Assembly (NCBI GenBank): GCA_021740845.1
Contig: JAIOYZ010000002.1
Coordinates: forward strand, 186,001 to 250,000
Source: Bacteroidia bacterium
GTDB lineage: Bacteria; Bacteroidota; Bacteroidia; UKL13-3
DNA: 64,000 bases
Direction of reading: 5' to 3'
Below, in pieces: positions 43,359-51,136 of the stretch. Positions within the stretch are counted from its first letter, which is position 1, and every line of letters begins with the position of its first letter. The translations under genes and the position numbers were made by a program. The notes under the pieces are model-generated. The model searched no databases. It was given only the letters and a program-made list of their open reading frames with translations, and was not told the origin of the DNA.

Positions 43359-44060
43359 CTAGGGCTTTTCAATAACCATTTTATCTTGAATAGTGAAAAA
43401 TTGGGTAGGCACACTCTGCCTAAATCCTAAATAAGTTTCATAAATAGGTGTAAAATCTTTTCGCTCGTCCATGCATTGGTTGTAATTTTCATATAAACCC
43501 ATTAACAACTCACAAGTCTCTCTTACTGCAAAATTCCCGCTTTCGTGCCCAGTTATGTAATCGGCTAATTCGTTTTGAACCAAATAGTTTTTAAACAATG
43601 GATTGGCTTTTCTATTAATGAGAATCCTAACCCCAGAAACCGCTGCTATACTTAAATCTAAAACATCATCAAAAACATAGCAAACCTCATCAAATTGAAT
43701 ATTCTGTAGTTTGCAAAAATGATCTAAAGCTATAATTTTATTAGGAACTTTATAATAGCAAGAATCAAAATGTTCTCTTTCAGAAAAATAAAAGGCCATT
43801 TCATTTTTCTCTCCAGAAATAATTGCAGTAGAAGGTAATTTTTGGTTCAACAAATAATAACTAAAGCGCAACATATTAGTGCCCATGCTATCTGCTTCGT
43901 TAAATGTGCTGCTTTTATTTTCATTTTTAACTGCATTATTAAAAACCCCATCCCAATCAAAAACAAATGCTTTTACTTTAGTTAATTTTTGAGCCAACTC
44001 TGTTGCTGGGATGCAAAAAACTCCACCAATTTGGGTGAATAAGGATTCTGTATGATTCAT
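43359..44060 (-). CDS. HAD-family phosphatase, KdsC-like
   Basis: 233 residues. Motif I is FVFDWDGVFNN with the nucleophile aspartate, motif II the serine in TAIISGEK, and the C-terminal acidic motif VFDDVLDLS; a lysine precedes it (YYKVPNK). It most resembles the C0-type, capless KdsC (Kdo-8-phosphate phosphatase) branch, though it is longer than the usual 170-190 residues. Its position just beyond a kdsA-containing operon fits that role but does not prove it. ATG 44060 is used; a TTG upstream is not. Confidence 0.65.
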   Translation of the reverse strand: MNHTESLFTQIGGVFCIPATELAQKLTKVKAFVFDWDGVFNNAVKNENKSSTFNEADSMGTNMLRFSYYLLNQKLPSTAIISGEKNEMAFYFSEREHFDSCYYKVPNKIIALDHFCKLQNIQFDEVCYVFDDVLDLSIAAVSGVRILINRKANPLFKNYLVQNELADYITGHESGNFAVRETCELLMGLYENYNQCMDERKDFTPIYETYLGFRQSVPTQFFTIQDKMVIEKP

Positions 44061-44118
44061 GAATTTTACCTTAGAAAGGTGCAAGATAAGTTGCTTTAAG
44101 GTAATTTCAAGAATGCAT

Positions 44119-44156: not shown

Positions 44157-44699
44157 TTATTCCTTCTCCATTACCCCTTTCAGGTTTTTTAAACCTGATT
44201 CTAATTGTTCTCCCAACATTTTATCCATATCCATGGTGAGCAATAATAAATTCATAGGATAAGGCATTTTACCATCAAATCCCCATCTAACTGTGGTAGT
44301 ACTATCATTTACGCTTTCAGTTGCCAAATAAGCATGGTCCTTTGATTCAAAAGGTTCAAAAAATCTCAGTTCATAATCCACTTTTTCTCCTTCACTAATT
44401 CCAATAATTTCCTGCTCACCTTTACCAATATCCTCCATTTTGCTATTCCAAGAAGAAGTGGCACCAACCATGCCATCTGTTCCGGTAAACCCTTTTTCCA
44501 TATTTGGGTCTTTCATTGCCCAAACACTGAAATTATCTTGGTTCTTTAATAATTTAACATAATTAAAGACAAGATCTTTTGATTTGTTAATAGTAATTTC
44601 TCTCTCAACAGCATATTCTTTTTTTACAAATAAGGCTGTGAGTAATGCAATTGCCACCAATCCAACGATGACAAGCAGAATGTTTTTTAGAATTTTCAT
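44157..44699 (-). CDS. SRPBCC/polyketide cyclase-like membrane-anchored protein
   Basis: 180 residues. One N-terminal hydrophobic helix (about 5-24), then a START/SRPBCC fold: strand and helix VEREITINKSKDLVFNYVKLLKN, FSVWAMKDPN and the long C-terminal helix LLLTMDMDKMLGEQLESGLKNLKGVME. The pocket ligand is unknown. It has terminators on both sides, so it is transcribed alone rather than with the Kdo operon upstream. Confidence 0.8.
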   Translation of the reverse strand: MKILKNILLVIVGLVAIALLTALFVKKEYAVEREITINKSKDLVFNYVKLLKNQDNFSVWAMKDPNMEKGFTGTDGMVGATSSWNSKMEDIGKGEQEIIGISEGEKVDYELRFFEPFESKDHAYLATESVNDSTTTVRWGFDGKMPYPMNLLLLTMDMDKMLGEQLESGLKNLKGVMEKE

Positions 44700-44819: not shown

Positions 44820-45830
44820 TTAGTCTTCCAAATCTTGGATATCTATCATTCCAATGGGTTTGCCATTTTCTGTTACCAAAATTGTATCTACTTTGGTTGA
44901 TTTAAATAATCCAGCAGCCTCATTTAATAAAGCAGAACTTTCAATAGATACTGCATTTCCGTATGTAAAGTCACCCATAGATTTACTCAAAACATCTCTA
45001 CCATCCGTTTGAATTTTTCTACGTAAATCTCCATCAGTAAATACACCTTTTAAACTTCCATCAGTATTAACAACGGTAATTGCTCCAAATCCAAACTCAG
45101 TCATTTTTACAATAGCATCTGCTAGATTGGTTTCAGAGGTTACAATTGGGTTAACAGTATTTATTGCTTCCTTAACACGAACGGTCATTAATCTGGTATC
45201 ATGAATAAATTGATCAGTACCTACAGTGGTAAAATGATTTTCTGTCAACTGCTTCATAATTTTCAATGGAACAGTAATGGTGTGAACACCTAAATTTATG
45301 GCATTTCTAATATGTTCCATTGTGCGCACAGATGAGAACATAACTTTGGTATCATAACCATAATGGTTAACAGCGTCAACAATTTGTGCAACTAAATCAA
45401 GTGCGTCATGACCTTGATCTTGTAAACGGCCAACTAACGGGCAAACATAGGTTGCACCGGCATGCATGGCCATATATGCTTGTTGTAAAGTATATACCAA
45501 ATGAACATTAACAAGTAAACCTTCATTACGCAATAATTTACATGCACGAACTCCTTCTAGCGATACTGGAATCTTAAATACTGTCTTCTTTGGGTCAAGA
45601 CCTAAAGCCAATTGGCGTTTTGCTTCTGCAAGAACATCTTCTGCTGTATCACCTAATGCTTCAATTTGAAGAACAGGAACAATTTTCGATAATCTAACAA
45701 TCATTGCATCTACATCCGTAATGCCTTCACGTTGCATAAAGGTTGGAGTGGTAGTTAAACCATTTAAAAAGCCTAATTTAAATGCTTCTTCAATTTCTTT
45801 CAGGTTGGCTGAATCTAAGTATAATTCCAT
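44820..45830 (-). CDS. Transaldolase/FSA-like domain fused to a KdsD-type CBS pair
   Basis: 336 residues. Residues 1-210 are a small transaldolase/fructose-6-phosphate aldolase (FSA) barrel beginning MELYLDSANL, with the Schiff-base lysine K86 (VFKIPVSLEG) and D6 kept. Other active-site positions differ from FsaA: N28 is T28, Q59 is E57, A129 is C130, Y131 is L132 and N133 is G134. Residues about 222-336 are two CBS domains, the first containing GVFTDGDLRR, the signature of arabinose-5-phosphate isomerase KdsD/KpsF. It ends a probable operon with kdsA, kdnB and kdnA. I infer a link to Kdo precursor supply; the reaction is unknown. Confidence 0.82.
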   Translation of the reverse strand: MELYLDSANLKEIEEAFKLGFLNGLTTTPTFMQREGITDVDAMIVRLSKIVPVLQIEALGDTAEDVLAEAKRQLALGLDPKKTVFKIPVSLEGVRACKLLRNEGLLVNVHLVYTLQQAYMAMHAGATYVCPLVGRLQDQGHDALDLVAQIVDAVNHYGYDTKVMFSSVRTMEHIRNAINLGVHTITVPLKIMKQLTENHFTTVGTDQFIHDTRLMTVRVKEAINTVNPIVTSETNLADAIVKMTEFGFGAITVVNTDGSLKGVFTDGDLRRKIQTDGRDVLSKSMGDFTYGNAVSIESSALLNEAAGLFKSTKVDTILVTENGKPIGMIDIQDLED

Positions 45831-45913: not shown

Positions 45914-46591
45914 TTATTTAAACCCAAAATTATAGGATAATCCAAGCATTAGACCAGCAGGATTTAATAGTTTAAAAGCCGCCTTTTGATTATTGGAAAA
46001 AGTAAGTTCATTAGTTGAAACCCTTGTATTGGTTGAAACTAACAAAGCTGAAGACTCATTAAAGCCATAATATTGTTTGTTTAATCCAAATGCAAAACCC
46101 ATTTCCAATGCAAATCGATTTCCTCTTTTGGATACAAATTGTCTTTGTATTCCAGTGTTTAAGGTAATCATTTGATCCAAATAGCAGTCAGTGGTAGTTT
46201 TTGTTGTGGCTCCCATATAAACCACTTCAACTTCTGTATTTATGGTTGAAAAGCCAGAGGCTCTCGAGAAGCCAAGCATTGGGCACCATGCATTTTTATT
46301 TATTGCATTAAAAATAGTTGTTATCCCAACCTTGGAACCATAGCCACCTATACCCAAATTTAATTCGGTAATAATATTAGGGGCTACTTTATATCCAGCC
46401 GATATACCTAATAACCCCATTTTATAGTGTAATCCAGTACCTAAACCAAAATAGAACTTAGGTTCTCCTATTTCACTAGAACTCGAATTCCCTTTTTTGT
46501 CTTTTTGGTAAACCGGTTCGTATTGAGCTTTCGCTGTATAATTTATTAGGTTCAAACCGAATACTATAAAAAATAGGTGCAGGATTTTCAT
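45914..46591 (-). CDS. Outer-membrane beta-barrel protein of unknown function
   Basis: 225 residues with a signal peptide (ending TAKAQ), alternating hydrophobic strands (FYFGLGTGLHYKMGLLGISAG, NIITELNLGIGGYG) and a terminal aromatic-ended strand LMLGLSYNFGFK, typical of small porin-like barrels. I recognise no specific family. It is 8 bp from the lipoprotein gene upstream, inside the Kdo8N run, so it may be part of lipopolysaccharide or envelope work. A GGTTCAAACC motif (46549-46558) lies in its signal-peptide coding region, read GLNL. Confidence 0.65.
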   Translation of the reverse strand: MKILHLFFIVFGLNLINYTAKAQYEPVYQKDKKGNSSSSEIGEPKFYFGLGTGLHYKMGLLGISAGYKVAPNIITELNLGIGGYGSKVGITTIFNAINKNAWCPMLGFSRASGFSTINTEVEVVYMGATTKTTTDCYLDQMITLNTGIQRQFVSKRGNRFALEMGFAFGLNKQYYGFNESSALLVSTNTRVSTNELTFSNNQKAAFKLLNPAGLMLGLSYNFGFK

Positions 46592-46599
46592 GGATTTGA

Positions 46600-47673
46600 T
46601 TAATTTTTATAATTGCCTTTGCAATAATAAAGACCATGTAGCGTAAAATAACAAAATTTATTCTGATAAATAAAGAAACCATATTTTGCATTTAGCGGTA
46701 CAAATATTTTGGGGTTAATAACCCTAATTTCATTGGTATTTTTGTTCCAATATTGATAGCCATCATAATCAGAAAAATACAACAAGGAATCACCATCTCC
46801 TAATAGATTTTGCTTTTGAACATAGTCATAAAAATTTACTTTTGTAGGAAATGAATAATATATAGAAGAAGTAAAGTCTGGATTAATTTTATAAATGCCT
46901 AAGTTATTTCCATTTGGTTCTTTTGTGTATGTTGTTAAACCAAACATTTCTCCTCCTAGTTCAGTGAAATCTCTTATTTCAATTGGGAAATTAAATGACA
47001 CACTATCCATTTTTGAAGTATTTGGGTCAAAAACGATAAAAAAATTATAATTGGCGGAAATGAATTTGGAATTGAATTCTCTAAATGAATTATTTTCAGT
47101 CCAACTAATTTTATTTGAAATTATTTTTGGTGGTCCATTGGGTGTATAGGAATTAGAATTAAAGCTAACAAAAAAATTGGTAAAATTACTTGGATTGTTT
47201 TTACCAGCAACTTTAAATAAACCAATTGCACCCATATTCCCATTTTTAAAAAAATCAAAATCGAGCAAAGTTGCTGAGGTATCTGAATATCCTAAAAATT
47301 CATTTAGGTCTTTCTTTATTTCTACATCTAAATTATTGACATCAAAAATGGAAAATTTATTCTTTTTTAGCCCTGAAGAATAAACTATATATGGGTAAAC
47401 AAATTTGTAATTCAAATTAAAACTGACAGCCTTTTCAGTGATTAATTCAAGGTTCTTATTAAACTTTAAAATGCTGGACCGGTTTACTATTATTAAGTTA
47501 CCTGCAGCATCTTCTTGTATTATTGTGGAACCATCAATTAGTCCACTATAAAATTTAGAATACAAAGAATCCTCAATAACTGGATTTTCGGTTTTTGTGG
47601 TTGAATCTTTTTTACATGAAAAGAAGCATGAGCAGGTCAATAAAATGACCATTGGGGCAAAAAGTTGTTTCAT
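46600..47673 (-). CDS. Lipoprotein of unknown function
   Basis: 357 residues with a lipobox ending in Cys (CFFSC, residue 20), followed by KKDS, which in Bacteroidota may mark surface export. The rest is beta-rich with irregular repeats (IVNRSSILKFNKNLELITE, GDGDSLLYFSDYDGYQYWNK), suggesting a propeller, but no family is recognised. It is followed by a beta-barrel gene after 8 bp. Both lie between kdsA and the transaldolase::CBS gene in one direction. Confidence 0.65.
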   Translation of the reverse strand: MKQLFAPMVILLTCSCFFSCKKDSTTKTENPVIEDSLYSKFYSGLIDGSTIIQEDAAGNLIIVNRSSILKFNKNLELITEKAVSFNLNYKFVYPYIVYSSGLKKNKFSIFDVNNLDVEIKKDLNEFLGYSDTSATLLDFDFFKNGNMGAIGLFKVAGKNNPSNFTNFFVSFNSNSYTPNGPPKIISNKISWTENNSFREFNSKFISANYNFFIVFDPNTSKMDSVSFNFPIEIRDFTELGGEMFGLTTYTKEPNGNNLGIYKINPDFTSSIYYSFPTKVNFYDYVQKQNLLGDGDSLLYFSDYDGYQYWNKNTNEIRVINPKIFVPLNAKYGFFIYQNKFCYFTLHGLYYCKGNYKN

Positions 47674-47730: not shown

Positions 47731-48564
47731 TTATACGTTTCTGTATGCTACTTCAGTATTGTGTATCTCAATTAATGGTTTCATAAACTCTTCTAAATCG
47801 TAAACACTAAGTTGAGATGCTGCATCGCATAAAGCGGTTGCAGGATCAGGATGAGTTTCAATAAAAACACCATCTACACCAGCTGCAACCCCTGCCCTGC
47901 TTAATACTGGTAAAAATTCTCTTGCACCACCTTTTGCATCTGCACTAGGAATTCCATATTTTCTGATAGCATGAGTAATATCAAAAACTACAGGATATCC
48001 AATCTGACCCATTAAGAAAAAACTTCTTGGGTCAACAATCATATCATTGTAGCCAAAAGTATAACCTCTTTCGGTTAAAATAATTTGGTCATTTCCAGAA
48101 TCTATACATTTCTGAACAGGATGTTTCATGTTTTCTGGTGCTAAAAACTGACCATGTTTAATATTAATTACGCGACCAGTTTTTGCGGCGGCAACCATCA
48201 AAGTTGATTGCATGCATAAATAAGCAGGTATTTGCAAAACATCACATACCTCACCAGCAGCAGCTGCCTGATCTGGGTAATGAATATCAGTTAATAAAGG
48301 AAAACCAAATTGCTCCTTAACTTTAGCTAATATTTTTACACCTTTATCTAAACCAGGTCCATCATAGTATTTTAAACTACTACGATTATCTTTTTGGAAG
48401 GAGGATTTATAAATCATTTTGATATTTAATCTTTCAGAAACCTCTTTTAACTTTTCTGCTGTTTTCATCATTATCGATTCATCTTCGATAACACAAGGAC
48501 CAGAAATTAAGAATAATTCTTTACTTCCAGCTTCAATATTTCCTACTTTTACTATTTTAGTCAT
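47731..48564 (-). CDS. kdsA: KdsA, 3-deoxy-8-phosphooctulonate synthase
   Basis: 277 residues. It joins phosphoenolpyruvate and arabinose 5-phosphate to Kdo-8-phosphate. Family motifs: FLISGPCVIEDE, YKSSFQKDNRSS, IPAYLCMQSTLM, and GYTFGYNDMIVDPRSF; the position before the DPR motif is N-D-M as in metal-independent types. ATG 48564 is 10 bp after the kdnB stop; the frame extends upstream but those residues overlap kdnB. With kdnB and kdnA it forms the core of the operon. Confidence 0.95.
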   Translation of the reverse strand: MTKIVKVGNIEAGSKELFLISGPCVIEDESIMMKTAEKLKEVSERLNIKMIYKSSFQKDNRSSLKYYDGPGLDKGVKILAKVKEQFGFPLLTDIHYPDQAAAAGEVCDVLQIPAYLCMQSTLMVAAAKTGRVINIKHGQFLAPENMKHPVQKCIDSGNDQIILTERGYTFGYNDMIVDPRSFFLMGQIGYPVVFDITHAIRKYGIPSADAKGGAREFLPVLSRAGVAAGVDGVFIETHPDPATALCDAASQLSVYDLEEFMKPLIEIHNTEVAYRNV

Positions 48565-48574
48565 TTTGTTTTTA

Positions 48575-49657
48575 TTATAATCTTCTAAACAATCCTTCAA
48601 TTAATTCAATGGAAATGATTTCTTTCCAATTTGTTCCAATAGCATGGTTCCACATATGAGGCAAGTTATAAGCAACATGGGCCATTGCGGTAATTTCAGC
48701 ATCTGTCCATGTAGCACTTAGGTTTTGAGGAAGTTTAATTGAATGCTTTTGGAGCATGGTATTAAATTCGGCCACACCTTCTGGGTAATAATCACCCAAA
48801 TGTTGAAAGGCCAAACAATTTGCATAGCAATGTTTTTCGCCAAAAATCTTGCTTAATCCATAACTTAAAGCATGGCAAACTCCTACTTCAGAATAGGTTA
48901 GGCTCAAACCGCCCATTAATGAAGCTACCATTAACTTATCATCATTTTCTGGTGATTGACCAGAATTTTCACTCAAGAAAATATCTCTACATAATTTAAG
49001 AGACTGCTCTCCGTAAGCCATGCTATAGGCATTGTTAAGAATCCCGTCTCTACTTTCAATGCAATGAATAAAAGTATCCATTCCAGTATAAAACCACTTA
49101 TCAACAGGAACACTTTCAGTTAATTCGGAATCCAATATTACTTGATCAAAAATGGTCCAATCACATTTTAAACCAAGCTTCTTCTCTGGTCCTGTTAAAA
49201 CCGCGGTCATGCTGCACTCAGCGCCAGTTCCAGAAATAGTAGGAACACCAAGGTGATAAACTCCTGGCTTCTTAATTAGGTTCAAACCTTGATAATTTTG
49301 AGAAGGACCTTCATTGCAAAGCATCAATGAAAGGGCTTTTGCAATATCCATAATACTCCCACCGCCAATACCAATTACACCAGAAGGAAGACCTTTACCA
49401 GCAAGAATTTCATCTCTTAATTGGTCAATTTGCTCTGTGGTTGGTTCATGAGGATCTACATCAATAAAGTAAATAGTATCCTCTGGTTTTTGTTGCAAAC
49501 TACTTTCTAAGGATTTCCCTTTAAAATAATTATCTACTATATAAACAAAATACTTATTGTTTAATTCTCTTTTAGGTTCAACAATCTCGGCAAGTTGATT
49601 AAAGCTTCCCCTGCCAAAAACTGTTTTTTCAATTGATTTAAAATTCTTATGGCTCAT
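48575..49657 (-). CDS. kdnB: KdnB-like Fe-dependent alcohol dehydrogenase (Kdo 8-oxidase)
   Basis: 360-residue iron-containing alcohol dehydrogenase. NAD-binding GIGGGSIMDIAKA, and metal ligands from DTFIHCIES (D, H), CHALSYGLS (H) and GEKHCYANC (H). In Shewanella oneidensis KdnB oxidises C8 of Kdo, the first step to 8-amino-Kdo. Here it lies between kdnA and kdsA, 10 bp from each, which strongly supports that role over a generic alcohol dehydrogenase. ATG 49657 is chosen over the TTG at 49660. A GGTTCAAACC motif is at 49279-49288. Confidence 0.82.
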   Translation of the reverse strand: MSHKNFKSIEKTVFGRGSFNQLAEIVEPKRELNNKYFVYIVDNYFKGKSLESSLQQKPEDTIYFIDVDPHEPTTEQIDQLRDEILAGKGLPSGVIGIGGGSIMDIAKALSLMLCNEGPSQNYQGLNLIKKPGVYHLGVPTISGTGAECSMTAVLTGPEKKLGLKCDWTIFDQVILDSELTESVPVDKWFYTGMDTFIHCIESRDGILNNAYSMAYGEQSLKLCRDIFLSENSGQSPENDDKLMVASLMGGLSLTYSEVGVCHALSYGLSKIFGEKHCYANCLAFQHLGDYYPEGVAEFNTMLQKHSIKLPQNLSATWTDAEITAMAHVAYNLPHMWNHAIGTNWKEIISIELIEGLFRRL

Positions 49658-49667
49658 CAAAAAAAAA

Positions 49668-50873
49668 TTAAGCGGTTTGAACCAAAACAGATTGAATACT
49701 CTTGGTCATTTTAGCTATTAGGTCTGTTAATTCAGCATCCGTCCAAGTTGCTTTAATACCAAAAGAAATCAAACGACCAATAGTTTCTTGAGTTTTTGGA
49801 ATCTCCAAATTATTATAATCTTGTGGGGCACCTAATAACTGTACATTAGTTTTTGCAGCTACATTCCCATTCTTAATATGATTCCATTGGTTGATGAAAT
49901 GGTACATATTTGTGAACCAATAATTGAAGCCAGAAACCCCATTTGCATTAAACTCCTCCACTACTTTCATAGCAGTTTCTGTATCGGGTAAAAACATATT
50001 TAAAAATGTGGCTGAATCTCCATTAGGATCAGGAATAGTAGCAAAACTTACCCCAGAAATAGCGCCTAATTCATTCATTAAACGTTTCTTAATTAGATTG
50101 TTTTTTTCTCTAATCATAGGAACTCTTCTGGTTTGAACCAAACCTATAGCTGCATGTAACTCGGATATTCTATAATTGAAACCCAAAACTGGGTGATTTT
50201 CCATACCCCTATTGTTTCCTTGGTGATCATGGCCATGGTCTGAAAAACTATCAGCTAATTTATAGGCATTTTCATCATTGGTTACCATTACTCCACCTTC
50301 ACCAGCTGTTGCAATTTTAAAGAAATCGAAACTATAACAACCAGTTTTACCAAATAAGCCAGTTGATACACCTTTATAACTTGCAGCCATTGCCTGACCG
50401 GCATCTTCTACCAATATTAAATTATTTTCTTTAACAACAGCCATTATCTCATCCATATTGGCCATTTGACCGCACATATGTACCAATAAAACAGCTTTAG
50501 TTTTAGGAGTGATTGCTTTTTTAATTCCTTCTGCACTTAAACAAAGAGTTTCATCAATTTCCGCAAAAACTGGTAAAGCGCCAGCAAAAATCACTGCCTC
50601 AACGCTTGCTATATAGGTAAATGGAGGTACGATTACCTCATCGCCAGCACCAATTCCTGCTGCTGCTAATGAGCAAGAAACGGCTGTACTTCCACTAGAA
50701 ACCGCATGGGCATACTTTGAACCAACCAATTTAGAAACTTCTACCTCAAATTCACGAGCCTTCCAAATATTGTTTCTTTGAGCATCGTGGTTAAATCTAA
50801 AAAAGATGCCTGTTTCAAGCACATCGTTTATTTCTTTGCGCTCCTCAGCGCCATAAAATTCGGTACCAGCCAT
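49668..50873 (-). CDS. kdnA: KdnA-like PLP aminotransferase (8-amino-Kdo formation)
   Basis: 401-residue DegT/DnrJ/EryC1 sugar aminotransferase. The PLP lysine is in SFDFFKIATAGEGG; HAVSSGSTAVSCSLAAAG and EDAGQAMAASYKG bind the cofactor. In Shewanella, KdnA aminates the 8-aldehyde made by KdnB to Kdo8N. Adjacent kdnB and kdsA support the assignment. ATG 50873 is chosen: the protein then begins MAGTEFYGAEERKEI, while the frame upstream codes unrelated residues. TATATTTG (50952-50959, minus strand), 78 bp upstream, could be its -7 element. Two dispersed motifs lie inside (49674-49683 and 50130-50139). Confidence 0.83.
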   Translation of the reverse strand: MAGTEFYGAEERKEINDVLETGIFFRFNHDAQRNNIWKAREFEVEVSKLVGSKYAHAVSSGSTAVSCSLAAAGIGAGDEVIVPPFTYIASVEAVIFAGALPVFAEIDETLCLSAEGIKKAITPKTKAVLLVHMCGQMANMDEIMAVVKENNLILVEDAGQAMAASYKGVSTGLFGKTGCYSFDFFKIATAGEGGVMVTNDENAYKLADSFSDHGHDHQGNNRGMENHPVLGFNYRISELHAAIGLVQTRRVPMIREKNNLIKKRLMNELGAISGVSFATIPDPNGDSATFLNMFLPDTETAMKVVEEFNANGVSGFNYWFTNMYHFINQWNHIKNGNVAAKTNVQLLGAPQDYNNLEIPKTQETIGRLISFGIKATWTDAELTDLIAKMTKSIQSVLVQTA

Positions 50874-51136
50874 AATATGTTTTCTATTTAGACTGCGAAT
50901 GTACCAAATCAACTTGAAATTATTTCGAAAAGGATAAAGTATCCTTTTTTCCAAATATAGGGTCCGAAAACGGGTATCTATTCCCATTTAGAGACAAATT
51001 AATGTGAGATTAAAATTTACCACACTCATTAAATAAATTTTAAAGCACTAATTATTAATTAATTACAACTTGACACTAATTTTTTCAGTAGTAGGTTCAG
51101 CGTTTGTACTTTATGAAATACAAAACACCAAACATT

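Follow-up and report, generated by a model that had tools for sequence, protein, structure and literature searches.

Gene content of the locus

The window analyzed here is the whole 64,000-nucleotide stretch of a Bacteroidia contig (JAIOYZ010000002.1, positions 186,001 to 250,000), within which the following features lie on the minus strand:

43359..44084, minus strand: KdsC-like HAD phosphatase, divergent (NF007019)
44820..45830, minus strand: fusion of a TAL/FSA barrel with a CBS pair, 336 aa, the proposed arabinose 5-phosphate (A5P)-supplying enzyme (ORF, Pfam, NCBIfam, AF2 model, structural matches of the barrel)
44829..45194, minus strand: CBS pair of the fusion, KdsD/KpsF type, residues ~213-334 (TIGR00393, PRK10892, PDB 4o9k/3k2v/3fna, tblastn)
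45228..45824, minus strand: TAL_FSA domain of the fusion, residues 3-201 (Pfam, structural matches of the barrel)
45501-45503, minus strand: codon of H110 (alignment column)
45573-45575, minus strand: codon of K86 (alignment column)
45914..46591, minus strand: intervening ORF, left out of the pathway (ORF only)
46600..47673, minus strand: intervening ORF, left out of the pathway (ORF only)
47731..48600, minus strand: kdsA, KDO8P synthase of the KDNRSS subtype, with an uncertain TTG start (NF003543, PDB 6mdy, motifs, tree)
48575..49660, minus strand: kdnB, Kdo 8-oxidase-like iron-containing alcohol dehydrogenase (PDB 5k8c)
49668..50987, minus strand: kdnA, Kdo8N transaminase-like DegT protein, with homology from about residue 39 (PDB 5k8b)

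The predicted KdnA matches PDB 5k8b at E 6.5e-129, with the next entry at 2.2e-46, and the predicted KdnB matches 5k8c at 7.4e-121, followed by 3rf7 (8.6e-117), which is named only as an iron-containing alcohol dehydrogenase, and then by an entry at 2.1e-22; 5k8b and 5k8c presumably come from Shewanella. Orthologs of both KdnA and KdnB, which mark a cluster for Kdo8N (8-amino-Kdo), are thus recognized by their PDB matches. The kdsA product scores 348.7 bits against NF003543 (cut-off 242) and matches 6mdy at 2.5e-75. The HAD protein matches the KdsC model NF007019 at 4.9e-14, with 52.4 bits against a cut-off of 208, and a Pfam scan of its ORF gave no match. No kdsB was found in the 64-kb window. 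Judged by its sequence, the locus is a Kdo8N cluster made up of kdnA, kdnB, kdsA, the fusion gene and the KdsC-like HAD gene. An earlier, sequence-only reading had placed the fusion in a kdsA operon: kdsA is indeed close by, though two unrelated ORFs separate it from the fusion gene in this genome (the two genes abut in many relatives), and KdnA and KdnB, and with them 8-amino-Kdo, had been overlooked. A small protein encoded at 44157-44699, between the fusion and HAD genes, has a sub-threshold match to Polyketide_cyc2.

Domains and predicted structure of the fusion protein

The fusion ORF begins with ATG. Residues 3-201 match Pfam TAL_FSA at 3.4e-35 (122.2 bits against a cut-off of 27), and the protein scores 165.7 bits against TIGR00875, below the equivalog cut-off of 245.95. 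The tail has a Pfam CBS match (5.6e-15) and aligns with the kpsF model TIGR00393 at 4.8e-17 over profile positions 153-267 only, which are its CBS part; the score of 62.4 bits falls short of the family cut-off of 203.7. Among solved structures the tail is closest to the CBS pairs of the A5P isomerases 4o9k, 3k2v and 3fna (7.3e-15 to 4.3e-10), the best chain being that of 4o9k (7.3e-15), presumably a CMP-Kdo complex, and the next non-KdsD chain following at 3.4e-7. A tblastn search with E. coli KdsD matches the CBS tail at 45194-44829 (E 1.25e-10). No SIS domain was matched in the fusion by Pfam and NCBIfam profile scans.

An AF2 model of the full fusion, built with 44 sequences, has a pLDDT of 86.1 and a pTM of 0.60. 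VIA structural matches of the barrel include 3s0c, a small transaldolase (Z 28.2), and FsaA 1l6w (Z 26.7). A model of the CBS part by itself was poor (pLDDT 47.9) and was left unused; the type of the CBS pair is assigned from sequence, because the VIA list contains barrel matches only. The domain composition agrees with the sequence-only reading, which had described a transaldolase/FSA barrel fused to a KdsD/KpsF CBS pair (confirmed by ORF, Pfam, TIGR00393 and PDB CBS pairs), the absence of the usual SIS isomerase domain (zero SIS matches) and a Schiff-base lysine, K86, which aligns with K85 of FsaA. The fusion is carried by 34 of the 64 genomes of the order and is therefore not a chance artefact; the 33 other copies have 85-97% identity, those of genomes G003 and G027 being partial.

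Active site

The active site was compared between 86 fusion copies (83 different proteins) and 12 plain FSAs, 11 of which were taken from the phylum sample and the fusion's own genome and the twelfth of which is E. coli FsaA. D6, K86, R135 and S167 are present in all 98 sequences. T28, H110, C130, L132 and Q137 are present in every fusion copy and in none of the plain FSAs; in FsaA numbering these distinctive changes are N28T, T109H, A/S129C, Y/F131L and D136Q. T109 and Y/F131, to which the catalytic water of FSA and transaldolase is presumably bound, are replaced by histidine (H110) and leucine (L132) in 86/86 copies, and the aldol mechanism may therefore be altered. All of the substitutions listed in the sequence-only reading are present, and N28T, A129C and Y131L are distinctive, but Q59E and N133G are not, as all of the 12 plain FSAs except E. 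coli FsaA itself (11 of 12) likewise have the corresponding E57 and G134; T109H and D136Q had been missed. The fusion is, by these alignments, under strong and specific constraint, and with five active-site columns changed in 86/86 copies it is unlikely to be a plain transaldolase.

Distribution of the fusion and KdsD

A search for a separate SIS-domain kdsD, as the sequence-only reading had proposed, found none in the fusion's own genome, which is 100% complete. The five SIS matches of this genome fall in four proteins: MurQ and GmhA, both over their cut-offs (GmhA with 294.9 bits against 265), a PGI/PMI-like SIS protein that scores 207.7 bits, just short of its cut-off of 213.9, and a 613-aa protein, taken to be GlmS, in which SIS occurs twice. 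The best kpsF match in the genome is the tail of the fusion.

The 64 genomes of the order divide into 34 with the fusion, 21 with KdsD over the cut-off and nine with neither; no genome has both. KdsA is over its cut-off in 33 of the 34 fusion genomes, with a fragment-level match in the other (G027, 79% complete); among the 21 KdsD genomes, 15 have KdsA over the cut-off. The nine genomes with neither comprise the five of genus g2 and G054 (65% complete), whose matches to the KdsA model stay at DAHP level, and G033, G038 and G051 (96%, 88% and 70% complete), which have KdsA. Among the sampled genomes of the class (98, the own genome included), the 97 genomes with KdsA divide into 92 with KdsD only and five with the fusion only, and G104, the one genome without either, also lacks KdsA. 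The phylum sample comprises 395 genomes; the fusion occurs in six, all of them with KdsA and none with KdsD. The 288 genomes of this sample that have KdsA include 277 with KdsD, the six with the fusion, and five with neither at the thresholds used (G086, G263, G335, G366, G421), some of which are incomplete and others of which may hold another A5P source; six further genomes have KdsD without KdsA. The KdsA genomes without KdsD and fusion, five in the phylum sample and three in the order, imply that other A5P sources or gaps exist. Fisher tests give small values, with the caveat that they ignore relatedness and that many genomes are drafts.

A scan of named genomes supplied the best 80 of 491 stretches encoding a relative of the fusion. 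The first 30 (L061-L090) largely repeat genomes of the order sample and were left out of the count of further fusion genomes, which comprises the other 50 (L091-L140; the genome of L133 is G154 again). KdsD is below the cut-off or absent in 46 of these 50 and present in four (G464, G477, G479, G506); the conventional kdsD that the sequence-only reading had named as counter-evidence is absent from the own genome but does accompany the fusion in a small minority of others. G506 has a second, canonical KdsA besides the fusion-type KdsA, and the other three have the fusion-type KdsA only. No kdsA was found beside kdsD in the stretches read from the four genomes, the contig of G479 ending just before kdsD. 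Of the 34 genomes of the order that have the fusion, 30 encode a plain FSA besides, the own genome being one of them, and none is listed for the other four (G003, G013, G016, G017).

Gene neighborhood and the accompanying KdsA

Within 3 kb of the fusion gene and on the same strand, the best 80 of 491 stretches contain kdsA in 54, a HAD gene in 52, kdnB in 45 and kdsB in 30 cases; among the 63 of these loci with flanks of 3 kb or more to either side, kdsA is found in 41, HAD in 46, kdnB in 35 and kdsB in 27, with kdsA, HAD and kdsB all absent within 3 kb in 11. The sequence-only reading had named a lack of co-occurrence with kdsA in other genomes as counter-evidence, and these counts show no such lack. 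The full gene order kdnA-kdnB-kdsA-fusion-HAD-kdsB is found in 16 of the 80, and in L081 and L086 some 2 kb separate the HAD gene from the kdsB that follows it. The three kdsB products that were scanned (L053, L101, L197) exceed the TIGR00466 cut-off, and in L101 and L197 the HAD protein has a KdsC match that falls under the cut-off of that model. The most distant fusion copy (60% identity) belongs to another class and stands in a kdsB-kdsA-fusion row. An aldo/keto reductase gene (L053:5601-6578, G448) leads a row of the form aldo/keto reductase-kdsB-kdsA-fusion. One locus with a fusion of 81% identity (L096) is in a record titled Candidatus Saccharibacteria, probably a binning error.

The KdsA proteins of fusion genomes have KDNR in place of KANR, together with the motifs KHGQ, RKYG and CDAASQL, and form one clade (16 of 41 tree rows, support 100/99). 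Among the 30 loci compared for the KdsA motif, nine that were read individually comprise seven with KANR and two with KDNR, both of the latter from fusion genomes. Within family f11, G434 combines KdsD with a KANR-type KdsA and G253 combines the fusion with a KDNR-type KdsA. G312, a genome of the same class (7.03 Mb in a single contig), has KdsD and a fusion-type KdsA without the fusion, and its operon, kdnA-kdnB-kdsA-HAD-kdsB, is missing the fusion gene alone; the occurrence of a KDNR-subtype KdsA beside KdsD points to the same product for KdsD and the fusion. The operon genes also occur in G448, a genome of another class. Its KdsA groups with the KDNR clade and stands apart from five KANR rows belonging to its own family, a placement that suggests acquisition of the operon by transfer. 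G026 has the fusion but lacks KdsD, and a second KdsA, of canonical type (L057), lies in it on a 21-kb contig with a ParB gene; this contig may be a contaminant, and its KdsA is given no weight as support for A5P as the product.

A link between the fusion and Kdo8N as such was considered and set aside: 24 other sampled genomes, every one of them KdsD-positive, encode more distant relatives of KdnB (37-52% identity), and G355 has the fusion with no KdnB match at 1e-70.

Predicted function and alternative explanations

Synthesis of Kdo is widespread among Gram-negative bacteria, and isomerases are, to our knowledge, the only source described for its precursor A5P. The fusion would supply A5P for the synthesis of Kdo, here 8-amino-Kdo, in place of the isomerase KdsD. 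Computational support for this replacement comes from the domain architecture, the operon context, the near-complete mutual exclusion with KdsD and the same-operon swap in G312. The sequence-only reading had cast the fusion as a stand-in for KdsD and a source of A5P in a kdsA operon, and this part of it gains support from the exclusion of KdsD and fusion in 64 genomes of the order and in 97/97 of the class and from the proximity of kdsA. That the fusion replaces KdsD as the A5P source is very probable on these comparisons, and that it does so by Schiff-base aldol chemistry, in one of two forms, is somewhat more probable than the reverse. In both forms, class-I aldol catalysis through a Schiff base on K86 would join a glycolaldehyde unit to glyceraldehyde 3-phosphate (G3P), a mechanism inferred less firmly than A5P as the product. 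In one form free glycolaldehyde would be the C2 donor, and this is the weak point of the glycolaldehyde plus G3P route, free glycolaldehyde not being known to be abundant. In the other form the enzyme would obtain the C2 unit in place by splitting ribose 5-phosphate in a retro-aldol reaction and would add it back to the opposite face, a net 2-epimerization. Retro-aldol/aldol epimerization has parallels in AraD and FolX.

PMC9947464 and PMC6298115 describe FsaA as converting glycolaldehyde, as donor, and G3P to A5P and not to ribose 5-phosphate, and TalB F178Y as yielding both A5P and ribose 5-phosphate; the former is the reaction of FSA that the sequence-only reading had named. The title of PDB entry 3upb is that of a transaldolase in covalent complex with arabinose-5-P. 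These products and this title indicate that barrels of the transaldolase family can bind and form A5P, and because a barrel of this kind is able to produce either C2 epimer, conversion of ribose 5-phosphate to A5P by retro-aldol/aldol reaction is a real option. The KdsD-type CBS tail suggests that the fusion would be under the same allosteric control as KdsD. Control of the CBS pair by CMP-Kdo is plausible; feedback by either CMP-Kdo or CMP-Kdo8N is a guess. The reading that combines all of these elements, namely a class-I aldolase A5P synthase (a glycolaldehyde/G3P aldolase or a ribose 5-phosphate 2-epimerase) that replaces KdsD and receives feedback from CMP-Kdo or CMP-Kdo8N through its acquired CBS tail, is given a probability of about 0.5.

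Four other explanations were weighed. The barrel may have become a non-covalent isomerase that, like KdsD, converts ribulose 5-phosphate to A5P; H110 and E57 would then serve as acid/base and K86 as electrophile, in the manner of triosephosphate isomerase. Such an enzyme would require no glycolaldehyde and would account for the one-for-one exchange with KdsD, and H110, which occupies the position of T109 in FsaA and is present in 86/86 fusion copies and 0/12 plain FSAs, fits it; but the retention of D6, K86, R135 and S167 in all 86 copies would be unneeded by an isomerase, we know of no isomerase with a transaldolase fold, and this explanation is considered unlikely. It is much less credible that one of the other SIS proteins makes A5P and the fusion is an accessory: GmhA and the PGI/PMI-like protein are both in the own genome, but GmhA exceeds its own equivalog cut-off, and the presence of the fusion where KdsD is missing would be left unexplained.

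A different product, with the fusion making another aldose phosphate from which the KDNRSS-type KdsA makes a different ulosonic acid, would give meaning to the conserved changes in KdsA, such as KANR to KDNR, beside residues that presumably bind the sugar phosphate. The same KdsA subtype is paired with KdsD and no fusion in G312, however, which sets this explanation low, and the PDB names given to the homologs of KdnA and KdnB describe action on Kdo; it is equally hard to credit. An ordinary transaldolase or F6P aldolase, with a CBS tail through which the Kdo pathway tunes the pentose-phosphate pool, would fit the TAL_FSA score well over the Pfam cut-off, the conserved catalytic lysine and the four fusion genomes of the order for which no plain FSA is listed. 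It is the least probable of the four, given the fixed changes in five active-site columns of every fusion copy and the separate plain FSA in the other 30 fusion genomes, the own genome among them, and it would leave the absence of KdsD unexplained.

With the aldolase A5P synthase as the preferred reading, some environmental Bacteroidota lineages appear to make an outer-membrane sugar precursor by an aldolase-like enzyme that carries an isomerase's regulatory tail. If so, this would be a new way to make the Kdo precursor A5P and an example of a regulatory domain shared by two unrelated enzymes of one step, and a non-homologous A5P source would fill a gap in pathway reconstruction for the fusion genomes, which are common in some lineages of Bacteroidota (34 of 64 in the order) and rare across the phylum (6 of 395). 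The fusion may also provide the A5P aldolase of high affinity for glycolaldehyde that is called for in PMC9947464.

Comparison with known systems

A literature search by title and the start of the abstract found no report of a transaldolase fused to CBS domains, nor of a Kdo pathway that uses a natural A5P aldolase. With KdsD, KpsF and GutQ, from which it is nearly mutually exclusive in occurrence, the fusion shares the type of CBS pair and, as inferred here, its place in the pathway, but their catalytic domain is SIS and the fusion has an unrelated transaldolase barrel instead. With FSAs of the FsaA/TalC/YwjH type it shares the fold (Z 26.7-28.2), the Schiff-base lysine, D6 and the phosphate-site arginine; it differs from them in the five fixed substitutions of its active site, the added CBS tail, the kdsA operon and a score under the TIGR00875 equivalog cut-off. 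Sulfofructose transaldolase (BmSF-TAL) is another specialized transaldolase barrel, with a Z of about 26 to that of the fusion; it has a different substrate and no CBS tail.

A separate case is found in the sister genus g2, where all five sampled genomes encode a fusion of an RPE barrel with a KpsF-type CBS pair (339-372 aa; G019, L206:9915-11033, and G020-G023, L207-L210), the family scan having been made on G019 only and the proteins of G020-G023 matched to it by blastp. Its gene lies directly before a gene of the DAHP-synthase family and a HAD gene like KdsC and KDN-9-phosphatase, and the transaldolase-CBS fusion, KdsD and KdsA were not found in any of the five. As a second barrel-CBS swap beside a 3-deoxy-ulosonate synthase, it suggests that TIM barrels with such a tail evolved on more than one occasion for making precursors of ulosonic acids.

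A further related pathway is that for 8-amino-Kdo in Shewanella: the fusion cluster has clear homologs of both KdnA and KdnB, and differs in that its proposed A5P source is the fusion.
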